DNA from: Spirochaetia bacterium
GTDB taxonomy: Bacteria > Spirochaetota > Spirochaetia > Sphaerochaetales > Sphaerochaetaceae
Assembly: GCA_022482625.1 (NCBI GenBank)
Contig: JAKVOU010000001.1
Location: 3,334,784 to 3,398,783 of the forward strand
Length of the DNA stretch: 64,000 bases
Reading direction: 5' to 3'
The position numbers and the translations under genes were made by a program. Of this stretch, positions 29,239-41,608 are shown piece after piece. Under the pieces are notes generated by a model, which searched no databases, was not told the DNA's origin, and worked only from the letters and a program-made list of their open reading frames with translations. Each line of letters starts with the position of its first letter. Within the stretch, counting starts at the first letter, position 1.

Positions 29239-29988
29239 CTATTGGTTGTTGTTTGTCAGCTGGCTACGATATACACTCGGTGTCAGACCGCAGAAACGCT
29301 TGAATATCCTTGCGAAATATCCTGGGGTAGGGAAGCCGCTCAGAGCAGCAATTTTCTTGACGGACAGTTCCTTGTTGAACATGAGTTCAACGCTTCTGTT
29401 TACTCTCCAGGCGTTAAGGAACTGGAGAAAATTCATTCCCGTATACTGACGGAAAATCCTTGAAAGGTGACTTTCACTGACATTGAGGAACGTCGCTGCT
29501 TCCTGCAGGCCGATATTCTTGTCATAGTTGTCCCGGATATAGTCAATGGCCTTGTTGGCCAACTTGTTATCTGTCGTCAATGTCAGAGGAATTGCATCAT
29601 CGGCAACCAAAGCATTGACTACTGATTTGATCTGACAATCCCTGACTTTGTCAAGTTTGTTGATCATTGCCTGCAGTACCTTGTCAACAAGCAGGAAATC
29701 AACCGGTGGAATTATGGTCCTGAAAGGGCCCTCAAGATCCTGTGAGGCAATGACGACCGTATGCTGGAGAGAACACTTGGAAAGGAACAATTGCCCTTCC
29801 GCATCCTTTACCTTGTCATCTGTGATCATGATGTCACAGCTGAGCAACTTAAGTAATTTTGAACCTATTTTGCCGTCTCCGGTGCTTCCTGCAAGTTCTA
29901 GGTCCAGGCTTTCCCATCTGATGTTGTCTGTCAGGCCCTGTCTGAGGCCATTGTCCTCGAGTACGATCAAAACTGTATGATGTCCCAT
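29239..29988 (-). CDS. AraC-family regulator with a shortened receiver-like N-terminus
   Basis: About 249 residues. The N-terminus looks like a CheY/YesN-type receiver: V-L-I-V-L-E-D-N-G-L-R, W-E-S-L-D-L-E-L-A-G and I-M-I-T-D-D with the likely phosphoacceptor D57, but the second half of the domain is compressed. The C-terminal 100 residues hold two AraC helix-turn-helix motifs (N-V-S-E-S-H-L-S-R-I-F-R-Q-Y-T-G and I-A-A-L-S-G-F-P-T-P-G-Y-F-A-R-I-F-K-R). AAGGGG precedes the ATG at 29988. No histidine kinase is adjacent, so it may be an orphan. It is divergent from the ilv operon, with a 200-base gap to the ilv promoter. Confidence 0.83.
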   Translation of the reverse strand: MGHHTVLIVLEDNGLRQGLTDNIRWESLDLELAGSTGDGKIGSKLLKLLSCDIMITDDKVKDAEGQLFLSKCSLQHTVVIASQDLEGPFRTIIPPVDFLLVDKVLQAMINKLDKVRDCQIKSVVNALVADDAIPLTLTTDNKLANKAIDYIRDNYDKNIGLQEAATFLNVSESHLSRIFRQYTGMNFLQFLNAWRVNRSVELMFNKELSVKKIAALSGFPTPGYFARIFKRFCGLTPSVYRSQLTNNNQ

Positions 29989-30193
29989 AGCCAACCCCTT
30001 TGCCATTTACTGAAATGCAGACTTGTCATGATGCTACCTTATGATTCCTGATGAATCGGTAGGTATACATCAAATTCAAGACTTGGCGATATCAAATTTA
30101 TGACAGATTTGTCGAAAAATGTCAATGATACTGCATATTCAAGGAATATCTATGCAATAAATGAATATTATTGATTTTTATTGCAATTTTGGG

Positions 30194-30223
30194 TTGACAA
30201 GGAAACGAAATTGAGTCTAAGGT
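30194..30223 (+). promoter_or_regulatory. Promoter of the ilv-leu operon
   Basis: TTGACA (30194-30199) followed after 18 bases by TAAGGT (30218-30223); a 16-base spacing to TCTAAG is an alternative. The -10 is weak. It stands about 45 bases upstream of the leader peptide. The rest of the 478-base gap between the AraC start (29988) and this operon (30000-30190) is AT-rich and shows no gene. Confidence 0.55.
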
Positions 30224-30266
30224 AGTGACACCAGCTGAAAAGCGTATCTATCGCAAGGAGCACAGG

Positions 30267-30389
30267 ATGAATACCGCATATATATCTTCTGTATCGCTAT
30301 CCATTATTCCTGTCCATGTAGTAAACATGGTAGTAGCTCTGTATGCTGTCGTAATTCTTATTCTAGCAAGCCTACTAATTATTATTTAG
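30267..30389 (+). CDS. ilvL: Branched-chain amino acid leader peptide
   Basis: A 40-codon open frame with an AAGGAG site upstream and no resemblance to a structural protein. 22 of the 40 residues are Ile, Leu or Val (8, 6 and 8), and residues 28-40 read V-V-I-L-I-L-A-S-L-L-I-I-I, 11 of 13 branched-chain. The frame ends at 30389, one base before the stem-loop region, which contains a terminator. This is the classical layout of transcription attenuation: ribosomes stalling for lack of charged Ile, Leu or Val tRNA would change folding of the RNA behind. The peptide itself needs no function. It is too short for most gene callers. Confidence 0.88.
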   Translation: MNTAYISSVSLSIIPVHVVNMVVALYAVVILILASLLIII

Positions 30390-30460
30390 CCACGGTACGT
30401 CAGAGATAAACAGACAAAACCGTGGCAAGCCTCCCCCAATCAGACCGTGGGAGCGTTTTT
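30390..30460 (+). terminator. ilv attenuator (alternative stems and terminator)
   Basis: Directly after the leader peptide stop: CCACGGT (30390-30396) can pair with either of two identical ACCGTGG copies (30419-30425 or 30444-30450). The last copy overlaps the 3' arm of a second stem, CTCCC (30431-30435)/GGGAG (30449-30453), which is followed by five T (30456-30460). The mutually exclusive pairings fit an antiterminator/terminator switch controlled by the leader peptide. The exact fold needs an RNA folding calculation. Confidence 0.75.
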
Positions 30461-30483
30461 CTATATCCAAAGGAGAATCAAAG

Positions 30484-31017
30484 ATGGAAGACAAGAAGGA
30501 ACTGAGATACACACTGGCATTGTTGGTCAAAGACCATGCAGGTGTCCTTCAACGCGTAGTGGGCCTTTTTTCACGGCGTTGCTACAACATTGTCTCTCTC
30601 AGTGTCGGTCCTACCTCTACGGAGGGAATCAGCCGGATTACCATTGTCGTCGGTGGCAATGAATCCATAGTACGGCAGATCAAGAACCAGCTTGAAAAGC
30701 TTATAGATGTCCATCGGGTCGTCATACTGGACAGTGAAAGGTCAGTCCAGTCAGAACTCCTGCTTGTCAAGCTTCAGACCAAGGACGGCAACCGGAGCCA
30801 GGTGCTGGAACTTGGTGAGGTGTTCAAGGCAAAGATTGTTGATGTCACTCTTGAAACAATAACTTTTCAGATGATCGGGGGACTGAACAAGGTCCATTCA
30901 TTCCTTGATTTGGCCAAACCTTTCGGCATTGTAGAAATGGCTAGGACCGGTATGACGGCGCTTGAGAGAGGACCCCTTCCTCTTTCGCTTCATCCCTATG
31001 ATGAGGATGATGACTGA
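30484..31017 (+). CDS. ilvN: Acetolactate synthase, small regulatory subunit
   Basis: A 177-residue regulatory subunit that confers feedback inhibition by valine. An N-terminal ACT domain (about 8-80: L-L-V-K-D-H-A-G-V-L-Q-R-V-V-G-L-F-S-R-R-C-Y-N-I) is followed by the ALS_ss C-terminal domain (about 90-165). AAGGAG precedes the ATG. It is the first structural gene after the attenuator, while its catalytic partner ilvB is the last gene of the cluster, about 9 kb away, an unusual separation. Confidence 0.94.
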   Translation: MEDKKELRYTLALLVKDHAGVLQRVVGLFSRRCYNIVSLSVGPTSTEGISRITIVVGGNESIVRQIKNQLEKLIDVHRVVILDSERSVQSELLLVKLQTKDGNRSQVLELGEVFKAKIVDVTLETITFQMIGGLNKVHSFLDLAKPFGIVEMARTGMTALERGPLPLSLHPYDEDDD

Positions 31018-31051: not shown

Positions 31052-32077
<1,026 letters not shown>

Positions 32078-32192: not shown

Positions 32193-33794
32193 ATGGATAC
32201 GATTAGAATTTTTGATACGACACTCAGGGACGGGGAACAGGCTCCTGGTTATAGCATGAATCTGGAGGAGAAGCTCCGGATGGCCAAACAGCTTGAAAAA
32301 TTGGGTGTTGATGTCATTGAGGCAGGTTTTGCCATTGCAAGTCCGGGGGATTTTGAATCCATACAGTCAATTGCAGAAAATATTGATGATGTAGTCATTG
32401 CATCGCTGTCGAGAGCTTTGGAAAAAGACATAGATGCAAGTGCGAGAGCTATTGCGAAAGCGAGGCATCCGAGGATACATACGTTTCTGGCAACAAGTGA
32501 CCTACATCTGAAATACAAGCTGAAGATGACCCGGGAAACGGCATTGGAACGGATCGCAGCCATGGTCAGATATGCCAGGAACCTTTGTCCTGACGTGGAA
32601 TTTTCTCTTGAAGATGCGTCCCGGACGGATCTTGATTACCTGTGCAAGGTCGTTGAGGTCGCTATCAGGGAAGGTGCCGGTACCATCAATCTGCCCGATA
32701 CGGTAGGCTATGCCACGCCGACGGATATTGCGGAAATGTTTAGCAGGGTGAGAAACAGCGTTCCTAACATTGACAAGGCCGTACTGAGCTGCCATTGTCA
32801 CAATGACCTTGGTATGGCCTTGGCCAATACATTGGCGGCCCTTTCCAATGGTGCGCGCCAGGTTGAAGGAACTATCTGCGGCATTGGCGAGCGGGCAGGC
32901 AATGTCGCGCTTGAAGAATTGGCAATGAACCTGCGTACACGTGCTGATGCGTATCCATTCCAGTGCAGGATACATACGGAGGAGATTACCCATACGGCCC
33001 GTCTGCTTACTTCCATTACCAATGTACGTCTGTTCCCGTCGAAGGCAATTGTAGGGGAGAATGCCTTTGCCCATGAGAGCGGTATCCATCAGCACGGCAT
33101 CATGGCCAATGCCAAGACCTATGAAATCATGACACCGGAAAGTGTCGGTATGGTCAAGACAAAGCTCGTGCTCGGCAAACATAGCGGTATCCATGCCTTT
33201 ACTGAACGGATGGGTGAGCTTGGCTACCATTTTGATGAAGAAGAGGACAAGCGCCTTTTCGGTGAATTCAAGACCTTATGTGACCGTAAGAAGACCATTG
33301 AGGATGACGACCTTATTGCTTTGGTGGAATCTACAGCCCCACGTAGCGAGAATGATTGGATCTTGGACAATTTTGTCGTGAACAGCGGTAATCTGATGAA
33401 CAGTACGGCCTGTGTTACCCTTATACACAACGGAAAGAAACGGATGGAAGTAGCAGTGGGTACAGGGCCTGTCTATGCATCCCTGAGGGCTGTGGAAAAG
33501 ATTATCCGTCATCCCTTCGGCCTTACGGAGTATAGCCTCAATGCTGTTACTGAGCATAGGGATGCGCAGGGCGAAGTAATCGTCAAGATTACTGATGGCA
33601 ATGGATTCTATAGAGGTCGGGGAGTATCGACCGATGTAATCGAGGCATCCATACTTTCATGCCTTGCGGCAGTGAATCGGATGCTGAGCAATGAACCTCC
33701 CGTAGTGCGGGGAAGAAAACCACAGCAGCTGAGTCTTGATGACGATATGTTGGTCGGACACAGCGACAAAGGTAAGGAGGAAGATGATGAATGA
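32193..33794 (+). CDS. leuA: 2-isopropylmalate synthase
   Basis: A 533-residue enzyme that condenses 2-oxoisovalerate with acetyl-CoA, the first step of leucine synthesis. N-terminal TIM barrel opens with I-R-I-F-D-T-T-L-R-D-G-E-Q-A-P-G; metal ligands in S-C-H-C-H-N-D-L-G-M-A; C-terminal LeuA dimer/allosteric domain (about 385-510) binds leucine. The ATG at 32193 fits the family start and has AGAAGGA ten bases upstream; the ATG at 32169 is possible. The end overlaps cimA by 8 bases. Confidence 0.95.
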   Translation: MDTIRIFDTTLRDGEQAPGYSMNLEEKLRMAKQLEKLGVDVIEAGFAIASPGDFESIQSIAENIDDVVIASLSRALEKDIDASARAIAKARHPRIHTFLATSDLHLKYKLKMTRETALERIAAMVRYARNLCPDVEFSLEDASRTDLDYLCKVVEVAIREGAGTINLPDTVGYATPTDIAEMFSRVRNSVPNIDKAVLSCHCHNDLGMALANTLAALSNGARQVEGTICGIGERAGNVALEELAMNLRTRADAYPFQCRIHTEEITHTARLLTSITNVRLFPSKAIVGENAFAHESGIHQHGIMANAKTYEIMTPESVGMVKTKLVLGKHSGIHAFTERMGELGYHFDEEEDKRLFGEFKTLCDRKKTIEDDDLIALVESTAPRSENDWILDNFVVNSGNLMNSTACVTLIHNGKKRMEVAVGTGPVYASLRAVEKIIRHPFGLTEYSLNAVTEHRDAQGEVIVKITDGNGFYRGRGVSTDVIEASILSCLAAVNRMLSNEPPVVRGRKPQQLSLDDDMLVGHSDKGKEEDDE

Positions 33795-35394
33795 CCGGAG
33801 GGTCGAACTCTTTGACTCTACGCTACGTGACGGTGTACAGGGCGAAGGCATAAGCTATTCGGTTTCGGACAAACTGCGCATTGCTGCTTTGCTGGATTCA
33901 TTGGAATTCGATTATATTGAGGCCGGTAATCCCGGCTCAAACCCAAAGGACATGATGTTTTTCCAGGAAATAGAAAAACGGAAGCTGCAGCATGCTACCT
34001 TGGTAGCCTTTGGTTCAACCAGGAGAAGGGGAACCGATGTCTGTCAGGACGCAAATATCAAATCATTGCTTGCAAGCGGTACCTCCTGCCTGTGCATCTT
34101 CGGGAAGTCCTGGGACTTTCAAGTAACGGATATAATCAGGACCAGACTGGAAGAGAATCTTGATATGATCGGCGATACCATCAGCTATCTCGTTGCACAA
34201 GGTAGGGAAGTCTTCTTCGATGCCGAACATTTCTTTGACGGGTATGTTGCCAACAGGGACTATGCGCTGGCTACATTGGAAAGGGCCAGGACTGCCGGAG
34301 CATCAAGATTGATTCTCTGTGAGACAAGAGGCGGCATGATGCCTGACAAGGTCGGCAGGATCACAGGAGAAGTGGCCAAGGCATTTCCTGATGTACGCAT
34401 CGGGATACATGCACATGATGACTGTGGTGTTGCCGTGGCCGCATCCCTTATGGCAGTGCAGGCAGGGGCAACGCAAGTCCAGGGGACTCTTCTCGGTTTC
34501 GGAGAACGTTGCGGCAATGCAAACCTGGTCACGGTCGCTTCCGACCTGAAGTTCAAGATGGGATATTCATGCCTGAGTAACAAAAGCTATCCTAAGTTCT
34601 TTGAGACATGCAGGGAAGTGGCGGAGATCTCAAATATTAGGATTCCTCACCAGCAGGCGTTCATCGGTCATTCAGCTTTTTCACATAAGGGTGGCATGCA
34701 CATAGATGGTGTGAGAAAAAATCCGGTATCCTTTGAACATGAAAAACCTGAATCATTCGGAAACTGCAGACACCTGTTGACCAGTGAAGTGGCGGGCAAG
34801 GCCTTGTTGCTTCAGAAGATAAAGGCAATAGTTCCTGGCTTTGACAAACAGGATCCCCGAGTAGAAGAACTGGTTGTAAGCTTGAAGAGACTGGAGGCTG
34901 CAGGTTATCACTATGAGGGTGCCGAAGCTTCATTTGACTTGATTATCCGCAAGAGCCTGGGACTTGACAAATCATATTTCAGACTGGTGCACTATAAGAC
35001 GATAGGGGAGCAGGTAAACGGGAACAATGATGACCGGCAGATGCATACTGCCGTAATCAAGGTAATCTGTGCCGGACGTTCTGCAATCACGGCGGAAGAA
35101 GGTGCAGGTCCCGTCAATGCATTGGATAAAGCTTTGAGGAAAGTCCTTGAACCCTTTTATCCGCAACTTTCAGGCGTACACCTGAGTGACTATAAGGTCA
35201 GGGTCCTTGACGGTGTGGAAGCAACTGCTTCAAAAGTCAGGGTCCTGATTGAATCGACAGACGGAACCAGGTCATGGAATACGGTAGGCGTAAGCCATGA
35301 CATCATTATAGCAAGCTGGCAGGCACTGAGCGACAGCATCAGCTGGTACCTTCAGACAACGGGTGCCGAACCTGCGATGATAGGAGAAAAATAG
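33787..35394 (+). CDS. cimA: (R)-citramalate synthase
   Basis: A 535-residue paralogue of LeuA that condenses pyruvate with acetyl-CoA, giving a threonine-independent route to 2-oxobutyrate and isoleucine. Features of the CimA group: [31 protein letters not shown] near residue 50, H-A-H-D-D-C-G-V-A metal site, [12 protein letters not shown] and a C-terminal regulatory domain. The start at 33787 has GGAGG six bases upstream; another ATG lies three bases earlier. No ilvA (threonine deaminase) is present in the cluster, consistent with the citramalate pathway. The products go through LeuCDB. Confidence 0.92.
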
Positions 35395-35396
35395 AA

Positions 35397-36659
35397 ATGG
35401 GAATGACAATGTCACAGAAGGTGCTTGCAGCCAAAGCAGGGCTGGAGAGCGTCCGACCCGGACAATTGATCATGGCAAACCTGGATATGGTACTGGGCAA
35501 TGATATCACAAGCCCGGTTGCCATAGCTGAGTTCGGAAAGTTCGGAAAGACCGAGGTCTTCGACAAGGACAAGGTAGCCCTTGTGCCTGACCACTTTGCC
35601 CCGAACAAGGACATCAAGGCTGCCCAGCAGTGCAAGTGTGTCAGGAACTTTGCCAAGGAAAAGGGAATTACCAACTACTTTGAGGTAGGTAAGATGGGCA
35701 TAGAGCACGCACTGCTGCCTGAACAGGGGCTTGTGACCGCCGGAGATCTTGTCATCGGTGCTGATTCCCACACCTGTACCTATGGAGCTCTTGGCGCTTT
35801 TTCCACTGGCGTCGGTTCAACCGATATGGCCTGTGGCATGGCAACGGGAAAAGCTTGGTTCAAGGTCCCTTCGGCCATCAGATTCAATCTGTCCGGCAAA
35901 CTGGGAAAAAACATCCAGGGCAAGGACCTGATCCTTCATATCATCGGTATGATCGGTGTTGACGGAGCTCTGTACAAGAGCATGGAATTTACCGGTGAAG
36001 GCGTGCATGCCCTGACCATGGATGATCGTTTTACGGTCAGCAACATGGCAATTGAAGCCGGTGCCAAGAATGGTATTTTCCCTGTAGATGCAGCTACGCT
36101 TGAGTATCTCAAGGCCCATGGCAAGAAAGTACCGAAGGTATATGAGGCTGATGCAGATGCAGTCTATGAAAAAACCTATGATATAGATTTGTCCAAGGTC
36201 AAGAGCACGGTAGCTTTTCCGCATCTGCCTTCCAACACAAAGACCATTGACGAGGTCGGTTCCGTAAAGATTGACCAGGTAGTCATCGGGTCCTGTACCA
36301 ACGGCAGGCTTTCTGACCTTGAAGCTGCAGCTTCTATCCTCAAAGGCAAGAAGGTCGCTGAAGGTGTGAGGTGCATTGTCATACCGGCAACCCAACAGAT
36401 CTGGAAGCAGGCAATGGATGAAGGACTCTTTGATATCTTCATTGACGCAGGCTGTGCAGTATCGACACCGACCTGCGGTCCTTGCCTGGGAGGCCATATG
36501 GGCATCCTGGCTGAGGGTGAAAGAGCGGTCTCTACTACCAATCGGAATTTCGTAGGAAGAATGGGACATGTGAAAAGTGAAGTATACCTGGCAAGTCCCC
36601 AGGTCGCTGCCGCCAGCGCTGTAGCGGGCTACATAGCAGATCCGAACAAGGAGAATTGA
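35397..36659 (+). CDS. leuC: 3-isopropylmalate/citramalate dehydratase, large subunit
   Basis: A 420-residue aconitase-family subunit holding a [4Fe-4S] cluster. Cluster cysteines are visible in G-S-C-T-N-G (about residue 300) and P-T-C-G-P-C-L-G-G (about 360). The length and the start ([10 protein letters not shown]) match the shorter LeuC2/archaeal-type group rather than the longer enterobacterial LeuC. Two bases after cimA, four before leuD. Probably shared between the leucine and the citramalate (isoleucine) routes. Confidence 0.95.
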
Positions 36660-36663
36660 ACAG

Positions 36664-37155
36664 ATGAAAGCAAGTGGTAAGGTATTCAGATACGGAGACA
36701 ATGTGGATACGGATGTCATCATACCGGCGCGGTACTTGAACACTTCTGACCATGCACAGCTGGCACAGCATTGCATGGAAGATATAGATGCCGGTTTCGT
36801 GGGCAAGGTCGAGAAGGGGGATATCATAGTCGCAGACAAGAACTTCGGCTGTGGCTCTTCCCGGGAACATGCACCGATTGCCATCAAGGAATGTGGGGTT
36901 TCCTGTGTCATTGCAAGGACTTTTGCCAGGATTTTCTATAGGAATGCCCTCAATATCGGCTTGCCGATCCTGGAATGTCCAGAGGCCTGTGATGCCATTG
37001 AACAAGGTGATCAGGTAGAGGTCGACTTTGCCAGCGGTGTCATCACTGATGTGACCAGGGGCCAGAAATTCCAAGCTGAACCGTTTCCCCCGTTCATGCA
37101 GAAGCTTATTGCTGCAGGTGGCTTGGCAAACTATATGACCCAGGAGGAGAAGTAG
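36664..37155 (+). CDS. leuD: 3-isopropylmalate dehydratase, small subunit
   Basis: A 163-residue swivel-domain subunit, partner of LeuC. Family signatures: [14 protein letters not shown] (about residue 12) and [15 protein letters not shown]. Four bases after leuC and one base before leuB, all in one reading direction. Confidence 0.95.
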
Positions 37156-37156
37156 G

Positions 37157-38215
37157 ATGGAATTCAAGATTGCCTTGGTAAAAGGGGACGGCATAGGTCC
37201 TGATATCGTAGAGGAAGGCTGCAAGGTCCTTGATGCAGTCTGTGCAAAGCATGGGCATAAGGTCAGTTATGTTGAAGCTCCTGCCGGTGGTGCAGCCATT
37301 GACAGTACCGGAAAACCGCTTCCTCCTGAAAGCCTTGAGGCCTGCAAGGGGGCAGATGCTGTATTGTTGGGAGCCGTAGGTGGTCCGAAATGGGATTCCG
37401 TTGATCCCATGTTACGGCCAGAGAAGGCTCTGCTTGGTCTGAGAAGCGGTCTTGGACTTTTCTGTAACCTGCGTACTGCAATGATTTATCCACAGCTGAA
37501 AGCTGCTTGTCCTCTTAAGGATGAGATAATCAAGGACGGGCTTGACCTTGTCATAGTCAGGGAGCTTACCGGTGGTATATACTTCGGCAAACGTGGGAAC
37601 ACCGACGATGGCGCCTATGATACGATGGCCTATACAATTCCTGAAATCGACAGAATTGTCCGCAATGGTTTTGAGATTGCAATGGCAAGGCGGAAGAAGC
37701 TTTGTTCAGTCGACAAGGCAAATATACTGAGTTCCAGCCAACTTTGGAGATCTCGTGTCAATCTGATGTCCAGAGAGTATCCACAGGTCGAGGTGAGCCA
37801 TCTTTATGTTGACAATGCAGCCATGCAGCTTGTGAGGAATCCCCGTCAGTTTGATGTGATCGTAACCAGCAATATGTTCGGTGATATCCTTTCCGATGAG
37901 GCTTCCCAGATTACCGGTTCCATAGGCATGCTTCCGTCTGCTTCGACCAGAAGTGATGATTTCGGCATGTATGAACCGATTCATGGCAGTGCCCCTGACA
38001 TTGCAGGAAAAGATTTGGCAAATCCGATTGCGACCATTCTTTCGGTAGCCATGATGCTTCGTTATTCCTTCCATCTTGGCAAGGAAGCGGACGAAGTGGA
38101 GGCTGCCGTAGGCAAGGTATTGGATGCAGGTTACCGTACTGCAGACATCTACAGTGACGGCATGAAAAAAGTCGGGACCATGGAAATGGGCCGGCTCATA
38201 GCGGAAGCACTTTAG
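37157..38215 (+). CDS. leuB: 3-isopropylmalate dehydrogenase
   Basis: A 352-residue NAD+-dependent oxidative decarboxylase of the isocitrate/isopropylmalate dehydrogenase family. Motifs: G-D-G-I-G-P-D-I-V near the start, [17 protein letters not shown] (substrate loop, about residue 92), [10 protein letters not shown], and [11 protein letters not shown] (metal-binding Asp residues). AGGAG stands upstream of the ATG. It can act on both isopropylmalate and methylmalate in organisms that use CimA. Confidence 0.96.
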
Positions 38216-38224
38216 GAGCGTAGT

Positions 38225-39908
38225 ATGAATAATATGAAAGGCAGATCCAAGGCTATGACTGATGGCCTTGAACGCGGACCGCACAGGTCATTGATGAAAG
38301 CTCTTGGCTGGACTGATAGAGAAATTGCCATGCCGACTGTCGGAATTGTGAATTCGATGAATGAGATTATTCCTGGGCATATGCATCTCGGACAGATTAC
38401 CGAAGCTGTCAAGGCAGGTGTACGGGAAGCCGGCGGCAATCCCGTGGCATTTCCTACCATTGGTGTCTGTGATGGCATTGCAATGGGCCACAAGGGAATG
38501 AAATATTCTTTGGCAAGCCGCGAGTTGATTGCTGATTCAGTTGAGATAATGGCAACTGCACATCCTTTTGATGCACTGGTATTCGTACCGAACTGTGACA
38601 AGATTGTACCAGGCATGCTGATGGCGGCCCTTAGGCTGAATATTCCCTGTATCTTTGTTTCAGGCGGACCGATGCTTGCAGGCCATGTCCCCGGAGAGAA
38701 AAGGGGAACTGACCTTGCTACTATGTTCGAGGCAATCGGACGTTATAAGGCCGGTACCATGGATGATGAGACTTTCGGTTGCTATGAGGACAATGTCTGT
38801 CCCACTTGCGGATCCTGTTCCGGTATGTTTACTGCCAATTCAATGAACTGCCTGTGTGAGGCATTGGGATTGGCACTTCCTGGCAATGGAACCATACCTG
38901 CAGTCTATTCCGCTAGGCTCCGGTTGGCCAAGGAAGCTGGATGGCAGGTTATGGATCTGCTCAAGAAGAATATCAGGCCGCTTGACATCGTTACTCCGGA
39001 TGCTTTCCGCAATGCACTGACTGTTGATATGGCTTTGGGTTGCAGTACCAATACTATGCTGCATCTTCCAGCCATAGCACATAATGCCGGCATAGAATTC
39101 AACATCTTCCAAGCAAATGAGCTGAGCTCAAAGGTGCCGAACCTTTGTCATCTGGCCCCTGCGGGACCTCATCATGTCGAAGACCTGTATGCTGCCGGAG
39201 GCATTATGGCTGTCATGAAGGAGCTGGATTCGCTTGGCTTGCTCAATGGAGATCTCATTACCGTTACAGGTGCTTCCATAAGGGACAGCTACAAGGATGC
39301 AGAGAAACTATGATCCTGAGGTCATCCGCCCTGTTGACAATCCATATTCAAAGACTGGTGGCATAGCTGTACTCAGCGGCAATCTTGCTCCCGAGGGAGC
39401 GGTAGTCAAACGCAGTGCCGTTGCACCTGAGATGTTGAAACATACAGGTCCTGCAAAGGTCTATGAGAGTGAAGAGGAAAGCATCGCGGCCATATTCGGT
39501 GGAAAGATCAGTGAGGGTGATGTCATTGTCATCCGCTATGAAGGTCCTAAGGGTGGTCCTGGCATGAGAGAAATGCTTTCTCCGACCAGTGCCATTGCCG
39601 GCATGGGCTTGGACAAAAGCGTTGCATTGCTTACCGACGGCAGGTTCAGCGGAGCAACCAGGGGAGCTTCTATAGGACATGTCTGTCCTGAAGCAGCCCA
39701 AGGCGGACTTATCGGCTTGGTGGAAGACGGGGACATGATTTCCATCGATATTCCGGCGGGTAAGCTTGAACTGTTGGTAGATGACAAGATCCTTGCTGAA
39801 CGAAGAAAACACTGGGTATGCAAGAAACCTTCGATTACGACAGGATATCTTGCTCGGTATGCAGCTATGGTGACAGACGCCAGCAAAGGTGCAGTATTCA
39901 AGGATTGA
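38225..39908 (+). pseudogene. ilvD: Dihydroxy-acid dehydratase, interrupted by a one-base frameshift
   Basis: Two frames together make one IlvD of about 560 residues. Frame 1 (38225-39313) covers the N-terminal part with the iron-sulfur cysteines ([10 protein letters not shown] and [11 protein letters not shown]) and ends at an early stop at 39311. Frame 2, read from about 39303 to 39908, continues with N-Y-D-P-E-V-I-R-P and holds the C-terminal barrel ([14 protein letters not shown]). Removing one A from the A run at 39305-39307 joins them as Y-K-D-A-E-N-Y-D-P-E-V. The rest of the gene is well preserved, so the shift is either recent or a sequencing error. If real, it blocks synthesis of valine, leucine and isoleucine in an otherwise intact operon. 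Confidence 0.88.
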
Positions 39909-39928: not shown

Positions 39929-41608
39929 ATGAAATTGAGCGGTGCTCGTATTTTGATTGAATGTCTGTGTGAGCAGAAAGTGGATACGGTCTTCGGCTAC
40001 CCCGGTGGTGCCGTCCTGCCCATTTATGACGCACTGTACGAGAACAGTGACCGGATCAGGCATATATTGACTGCCCATGAACAGGGGGCCAGCCATGCTG
40101 CGGATGGTTATGCAAGATCGACAGGTAAAGTCGGTGTCTGCATTGCCACCAGCGGTCCTGGTGCAACCAACTTGGTCACAGGTATTGCAACTGCCTATAT
40201 GGATAGTGTGCCGATGGTAGCTATTACAGGAAATGTTCCTGTAGCACTGCTGGGCAGGGACAGTTTCCAAGAGGTGGATATTACCGGCATTACCATTCCG
40301 ATTACAAAGCATAATTTCATCGTAAAGGATGTCAAGGACCTTGCGCAGACCGTAAGGGATGCTTTCTATATAGCTAAGGAAGGCCGTCCTGGGCCCGTGC
40401 TGATAGATATTACCAAGAATGTCATGGTAAGTGAGGATGAGTGGTCATATGTCGAGCCCAAGCCGATCAAACTGGTCAGTTCCCGTCTCAAGAAGGAAAA
40501 CCTTACAATTGCCACTGACCTGCTCAAAAAGGCGAAACGTCCCATGTTTTATTTGGGCGGAGGCGTCGTGAGATCATCGGCATATCTGGCTGTACGGGAC
40601 TTCCTTGAACTTATAGATGCTCCGGCCTGTGTTTCTCTTATGGGATGTGGCATCCTTGATTCTTCCTCTCCTCGGTATACGGGACTGGTCGGCATGCATG
40701 GGAGCCGGGTGTCAAATGTCTGTATCAGCAGATGTGACCTGCTAGTTGTCATCGGTGCCCGTTTTTCAGACAGGGTAGTATCTAAGGCAAGCAGTTTTGC
40801 GAAAAATGCATCGATCATACATATTGATGTTGATCCGGCTGAGATTGACAAGAACATCAAGACGACCTGTCATCTGATAGGAGATGTCAATATAGTTCTT
40901 GAACAGCTTTCTGCTTTGGTGGGGAAGCCCTTGGAACATGAGGCTTGGATGACAGAGGTTGCCAAGTATCGGCAGAAATATCCTATGAAGACGAATCAGG
41001 AAAGTCAGAGGGCAAGCCAGGTGCTGCATGCACTGAATGGTTTCCTAGGCGAGGATGATATCGTTGCTACTGAAGTCGGCCAGCATCAGATCTGGGCTGC
41101 CCAGTTCCTTCATCACCATAAACCTTGCAGGTTCCTGACCAGCGGAGGCCTTGGCACGATGGGATATGGTACCGGAGCTGCCATGGGCGCTCAGGTAGGC
41201 AATCCACAGGCCCGTGTGGTAAATGTAGCCGGAGACGGTTGTTTCAGGATGAACTGCAATGAGCTGACGACCTTGGTCCGTTATCAACTGCCTGTGGTCA
41301 TCCTTGTGATGGATAACCACACCCTTGGTATGGTACGTCAATGGCAGACGCTTTTCTATGACGGCAGACACAGTCAGACGACTCTGGATACTCCGATAGA
41401 TTGGATTATGCTTGCAAAGGCATATGGAGCGGAAGGCTTGCGCTTGACAAAGGAAGATGATCCGACTGAAGTGCTTGCAAAGGCTTTCAGAATGCATAAA
41501 CCTGTGGTTGTCGATGTGGAAATCCCTATCGATGACAAGGTATATCCGATCGTGCCTCCGGGAGAAGCATTTGACAAGGTAATCGGTGTTGCAATCTGTG
41601 AAGACTAG
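39929..41608 (+). CDS. ilvB: Acetolactate synthase, catalytic subunit
   Basis: A 559-residue thiamine-diphosphate enzyme joining two pyruvates (or pyruvate and 2-oxobutyrate). N-terminal TPP-binding half with the catalytic Glu in A-H-E-Q-G-A-S-H-A-A-D-G-Y-A-R; central FAD/NAD-like domain; C-terminal TPP/Mg site A-G-D-G-C-F-R-M-N with V-M-D-N-H-T about 28 residues on. The ATG at 39929 follows AAGGGAG; the longer in-frame start at 39818 would overlap ilvD. Last gene of the cluster; its regulatory partner ilvN is the first. Confidence 0.95.
   Translation: MKLSGARILIECLCEQKVDTVFGYPGGAVLPIYDALYENSDRIRHILTAHEQGASHAADGYARSTGKVGVCIATSGPGATNLVTGIATAYMDSVPMVAITGNVPVALLGRDSFQEVDITGITIPITKHNFIVKDVKDLAQTVRDAFYIAKEGRPGPVLIDITKNVMVSEDEWSYVEPKPIKLVSSRLKKENLTIATDLLKKAKRPMFYLGGGVVRSSAYLAVRDFLELIDAPACVSLMGCGILDSSSPRYTGLVGMHGSRVSNVCISRCDLLVVIGARFSDRVVSKASSFAKNASIIHIDVDPAEIDKNIKTTCHLIGDVNIVLEQLSALVGKPLEHEAWMTEVAKYRQKYPMKTNQESQRASQVLHALNGFLGEDDIVATEVGQHQIWAAQFLHHHKPCRFLTSGGLGTMGYGTGAAMGAQVGNPQARVVNVAGDGCFRMNCNELTTLVRYQLPVVILVMDNHTLGMVRQWQTLFYDGRHSQTTLDTPIDWIMLAKAYGAEGLRLTKEDDPTEVLAKAFRMHKPVVVDVEIPIDDKVYPIVPPGEAFDKVIGVAICED

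Follow-up and report, generated by a model that had tools for sequence, protein, structure and literature searches.

The window, meaning the whole 64,000-nucleotide stretch of DNA that was analysed, belongs to a 3.47-Mb genome of the family Sphaerochaetaceae. It contains a run of ilv and leu genes preceded by a short open reading frame and a set of potential RNA structures. The features discussed here are as follows; labels such as g16 are the genus labels of the search tool.

30194 to 30223, plus strand: promoter-like element ahead of the leader, with -35 TTGACA and a weak -10 (TAAGGT) (from the sequence)
30256 to 30262, plus strand: Shine–Dalgarno-like AAGGAG of the leader peptide (from the sequence)
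30267 to 30389, plus strand: leader peptide open reading frame, 40 codons plus TAG, translation MNTAYISSVSLSIIPVHVVNMVVALYAVVILILASLLIII
30389 to 30396 with 30419 to 30426, plus strand: P1 sensor stem, 8 bp, GCCACGGT with ACCGTGGC
30427 to 30460, plus strand: P2, a weak terminator-like hairpin, AAGC-CTCCC / GGGAG-C-GTTT with T5 (from folding and sequence)
30444 to 30450, plus strand: second ACCGTGG copy, the antiterminator partner of the original prediction, probably not functional (not conserved, negligible pairing)
30461 to 30468, plus strand: CTATATCC, the conserved YTATAYCC element 3′ of P2 (match to the genus and to g16)
30484 to 31017, plus strand: ilvN, acetolactate synthase small subunit, putatively the first gene controlled (TIGR00119, 1.4e-50)
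31085 to 32077, plus strand: ilvC, ketol-acid reductoisomerase (profile match)
32202 to 33794, plus strand: leuA, 2-isopropylmalate synthase (profile match)
33784 to 35394, plus strand: cimA, citramalate synthase (TIGR00977, over cut-off)
35397 to 36659, plus strand: leuC, 3-isopropylmalate dehydratase large subunit (profile match)
36664 to 37155, plus strand: leuD, 3-isopropylmalate dehydratase small subunit (profile match)
37157 to 38215, plus strand: leuB, 3-isopropylmalate dehydrogenase (profile match)
38225 to 39908, plus strand: ilvD, dihydroxy-acid dehydratase, in two overlapping frames (TIGR00110)
39929 to 41608, plus strand: ilvB, acetolactate synthase large subunit (TIGR00118, over cut-off)

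The two ilvD frames (38225-39313 and 39297-39908) correspond to positions 1-341 and 345-542 of TIGR00110, which suggests a frameshift or a sequencing error. On the other side, the operon is adjoined by a divergent gene for an AraC-type regulator (29239-30006, minus strand). The promoter-like element at 30194 to 30223 was not picked up by a consensus promoter scan. In 87 of 88 relatives, a TTGAC element is present in the 110 nt that precede the leader start.

The leader frame runs from the ATG at 30267 to the TAG at 30387-30389, and 22 of its 40 residues are Ile, Leu or Val. Such a composition is rare in the window, as just 6 of 693 open reading frames of 25 to 90 codons reach at least 40% of these residues; in this count the leader was taken from an upstream GTG start, giving 54 codons and 44%. 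CTA, a rare codon with a share of about 3% among leucine codons in nearby genes, is used for four of the six leucines of the leader. Across the relatives, the last 16 leader codons encode 67% Ile, Leu or Val in frame, compared with 10% and 26% in the other two frames. When leader codons are compared within genera, 29% of the changes are synonymous and a further 26% exchange Ile, Leu and Val for one another. The length of the peptide is not conserved, with predictions of 17 to 89 amino acids when the start is chosen mechanically. What is kept is only the end rich in the three residues and its distance to the stem that follows. Taken together, the frame, the Shine–Dalgarno sequence and the conservation suggest that the leader is translated.

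The stem in question is P1. Its 5′ arm begins at the last base of the leader stop codon, such that the motif CCACGGT (30390-30396) lies directly 3′ of the stop. The complementary ACCGTGG occurs twice, at 30419-30425, within the 3′ arm of P1, and at 30444-30450. In the family, ilvN is encoded in 94 of 139 genomes, and 90 regions upstream of ilvN were read. A leader rich in Ile, Leu and Val ends 0 to 6 nt, almost always 0 or 1, before a CCACGG-type arm in 89 of these: 88 that were scored and one (G008, with CCACTGG) that was recognised by eye. Of the 88 scored regions, 83 have no more than 1 nt between the stop and the arm. G063 (locus L145) is the only family genome read that has ilvN without the leader and P1.

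A covariance model, R1, was built from the last eight leader codons plus P1. At E values up to 0.05 it finds a single match in each of 93 of the 139 family genomes, and 92 of these matches lie just before ilvN, the exception being a weak match in G126. Across 393 genomes of the phylum, R1 matched 28 from the family and gave one borderline hit outside it, and a search of the window genome returned one match. As R1 was trained on the same sequences, it is the single placement and the taxonomic limit that are informative and not the scores. The same leader was not found at 20 loci of other families, one of them truncated by a contig end. Within P1, the six core pairs (CCACGG/CCGTGG) are complementary in 96.7% of cells and nearly invariant, and it is because they hardly vary that covariation in the core is weak. 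The inner extension of P1 does covary in g1, g16 and g13 (inner with outer stem), with 18 compensatory cells against 5.2 in shuffles and none of 500 shuffles as high, although these counts are inflated by the relatedness of the sequences; slid controls are also lower. The sensor half of the window genome, comprising leader, stop codon and P1, is thus well supported by conservation.

The half downstream of P1 differs from genus to genus. For GCCCGTGG, the 3′ arm of P1 in g2 and g11, there is a second possible partner, a downstream arm of the CCACGGGC type followed by a U-run; this arrangement is present in 49 of the 50 genomes scored. As modelled, P1 and this GC-hairpin terminator are mutually exclusive in both genera, the layout of a textbook attenuator. 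The terminator wins over P1 at equilibrium, and therefore P1 would have to act kinetically, forming before the polymerase has reached the 3′ arm of the terminator. A further layout occurs in g6, g15, g19 and g20, where a downstream arm of the CTCCACGG type, nested in a longer stem, is a possible partner of the 3′ arm of P1. At L130, L132, L149 (g20), L160 (g19) and L131 (g15), the long stem that contains this pairing involves the P1 loop, and there is no U-run.

The reading that best accounts for this locus, to which we assign a probability of about 0.87 on sequence grounds, is that of a ribosome-mediated attenuator that responds to the charging of Ile, Leu and Val tRNAs and governs the ilvN-ilvC-leuA-cimA-leuC-leuD-leuB-ilvD-ilvB cluster. 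The anatomy it builds on is observed: the leader frame, the placement of the stop codon, P1, the conservation of these parts and the exclusive stems of g2 and g11. From these sequences we infer stalling, masking by the ribosome and termination. When amino acids are plentiful, the ribosome would reach the stop codon abutting P1 and cover the 5′ arm, with a footprint reaching some 12-13 nt beyond the A site. P1 could then not form, and the downstream RNA would take up an off-structure. In the two best-sampled genera, g2 and g11, this would be an intrinsic terminator that uses the 3′ arm released from P1. Under shortage of any of the three amino acids, the ribosome would stall upstream on the codon runs, the rare CTA among them. 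This would allow P1 to form as an antiterminator, with transcription of the operon as the outcome. The original prediction had likewise proposed an Ile/Leu/Val leader-peptide attenuator of an ilv operon in a probable spirochaete, starting from a 40-codon frame with 22 such codons. Conceptual translation confirmed that frame, and the arm, both ACCGTGG copies and the hairpin with its T run were all found where they had been placed. The conservation of peptide and stem among relatives that the prediction called for is present, in the 89 upstream regions and in the covarying P1 extension, and it supports the proposal.

In the window genome, the off-structure would be the weak and separate hairpin P2. 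Its core pairs CTCCC (30431-30435) with GGGAG (30449-30453), followed by five T at 30456-30460. As a candidate terminator it is weak, with a 5-bp core, a 13-nt loop and T5, and it went unreported by a terminator scan limited to loops of 3-8. For the segment 30387-30462, the predicted folding energy is -25.8 kcal/mol with a z-score of -4.56, and none of 200 shuffles was as stable. P1 and P2 coexist in the predicted structure, and the hairpin keeps a predicted probability of 0.99 whether or not the 5′ arm is masked. According to the folding model, the two structures do not exclude each other. For this reason, the description of the region as a complete attenuation module is too strong for the window genome, while its leader, stop codon and P1 stand.

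It may be that the same sensor works with a different output in part of the family. In g1 and in g16, which appears to be Sphaerochaeta-like, the next structure after P1 is a separate hairpin (P2) of the CCCC/GGGG type, in most cases lacking a U-run. The conserved YTATAYCC comes after P2, ahead of the ilvN ribosome-binding site, and has no convincing pairing partner. A variant of the attenuation model would hold that the off-state of g1 and g16 dispenses with a U-run terminator and operates through Rho-dependent termination, through control of ilvN translation or through switching between P2 and a further stem, P4. We consider this variant a serious contender, at somewhat less than even odds. 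It draws on the conservation of YTATAYCC and on the absence of the U-run from three of four members of the window's genus and from 21 of 23 scored g16 genomes, but the hairpin is followed by T5 in the window genome, and two g16 genomes carry T6. P4 (GGGGAGC/GCTTATACCC) points the same way, being more stable than all of 300 shuffles, though the sequences are closely related; in the window genome, however, it is weak and unconvincing. Another candidate, an extended stem P3 joining the 3′ arm of P1 with YTATAYCC in g1 and g16, was rejected, as 262 of 300 shuffles scored at least as well.

A far less probable arrangement is the one originally predicted, in which CCACGGT (30390-30396) would switch partners between the two ACCGTGG copies and break up the terminator when paired with the second. 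Both copies exist and the second does overlap the 3′ arm of the hairpin; however, the first is transcribed earlier, pairs over 8 bp against 7 for the second, and leaves the hairpin free. Under constrained folding, the best structure using the second copy reaches -12.5 kcal/mol against -26.4 kcal/mol for P1 plus the hairpin, a penalty of about 14 kcal/mol, and its equilibrium probability is about 0. The second copy is also missing from the three other genomes of the window's genus. On these two grounds, folding and genus comparison, the switch was rejected.

Two other explanations are scarcely credible: a metabolite riboswitch or T-box element in place of a translated leader would suit a structured, conserved 5′ region ahead of an amino-acid operon, but the window has no match to Rfam leader or riboswitch families at gathering scores (a chance hit only at a relaxed threshold), and conservation follows the reading frame, which ends at the stem; and an independent small membrane protein gene preceding the operon by chance would suit a hydrophobic peptide with a Shine–Dalgarno sequence, but the peptide matches no Pfam family, varies widely in length and retains only its terminal composition and spacing.

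Attenuation by a translated leader thus remains the preferred reading, and it can be set against known systems. The ilv and leu leaders of E. coli are ribosome-mediated attenuators, the Enterobacteria being an established group in this respect, and E. coli leuL uses rare leucine codons, as does the Sphaerochaetaceae leader. The ilvBNC leader of Corynebacterium is also a ribosome-mediated attenuator (PMC10272879, PMC11857589). The Sphaerochaetaceae leader shares with the E. coli and Corynebacterium attenuators a peptide rich in Ile, Leu and Val just upstream of ilv genes, a stem that a ribosome could cover and, in many relatives, a terminator. Unlike them, it has a stop codon that directly abuts an almost invariant CCACGG/CCGTGG stem, a downstream half that varies by genus, an operon starting with ilvN, and no Rfam match.

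Closer to hand, the ilvB motif of Leptospira (PMC8632094) has been reinterpreted as an upstream open reading frame rich in branched-chain residues and threonine (PMC10272879), and an attenuator of this kind has therefore already been proposed for a spirochaete. Like the present leader it is a proposed ilv leader peptide attenuator; it differs in lying upstream of ilvB and in having seven representatives, a distinction drawn from its published description. The ilvB-OMG motif, found before ilvB in several phyla, likewise has a leader with many branched-chain and threonine residues (PMC10272879); this likeness also comes from description, and the window has no Rfam hit. In Staphylococcus aureus, a Leu/Ile-rich attenuator peptide, the ilvD leader, precedes the ilv-leu operon (PMC5794164). 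In the antiterminator fold proposed for it, the terminator stem is preserved (PMC5794164), as is the hairpin in the predicted fold of the window genome. By description, the S. aureus system differs in the first genes of its operon and in a terminator located 52 nt after the stop codon. The view that such modules are best known in Proteobacteria and Actinobacteria is accordingly incomplete, given the Staphylococcus example (PMC5794164) and the proposed Leptospira ilvB leader (PMC10272879).

A literature search, which was not exhaustive, found no earlier report of a Sphaerochaetaceae ilv leader. The leader is best described as a family-wide instance of a known attenuator type, with a possible variant output in g1 and g16. 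Well-supported branched-chain leader attenuation now reaches a whole spirochaete family with one recognisable architecture. With its roughly 90 naturally occurring versions of one attenuator, which share a constant sensor but differ in the output half, the family would allow testing of which attenuator parts are really required. If the variant proposed for g1 and g16 is true, a single family would couple the same sensor to different output devices.
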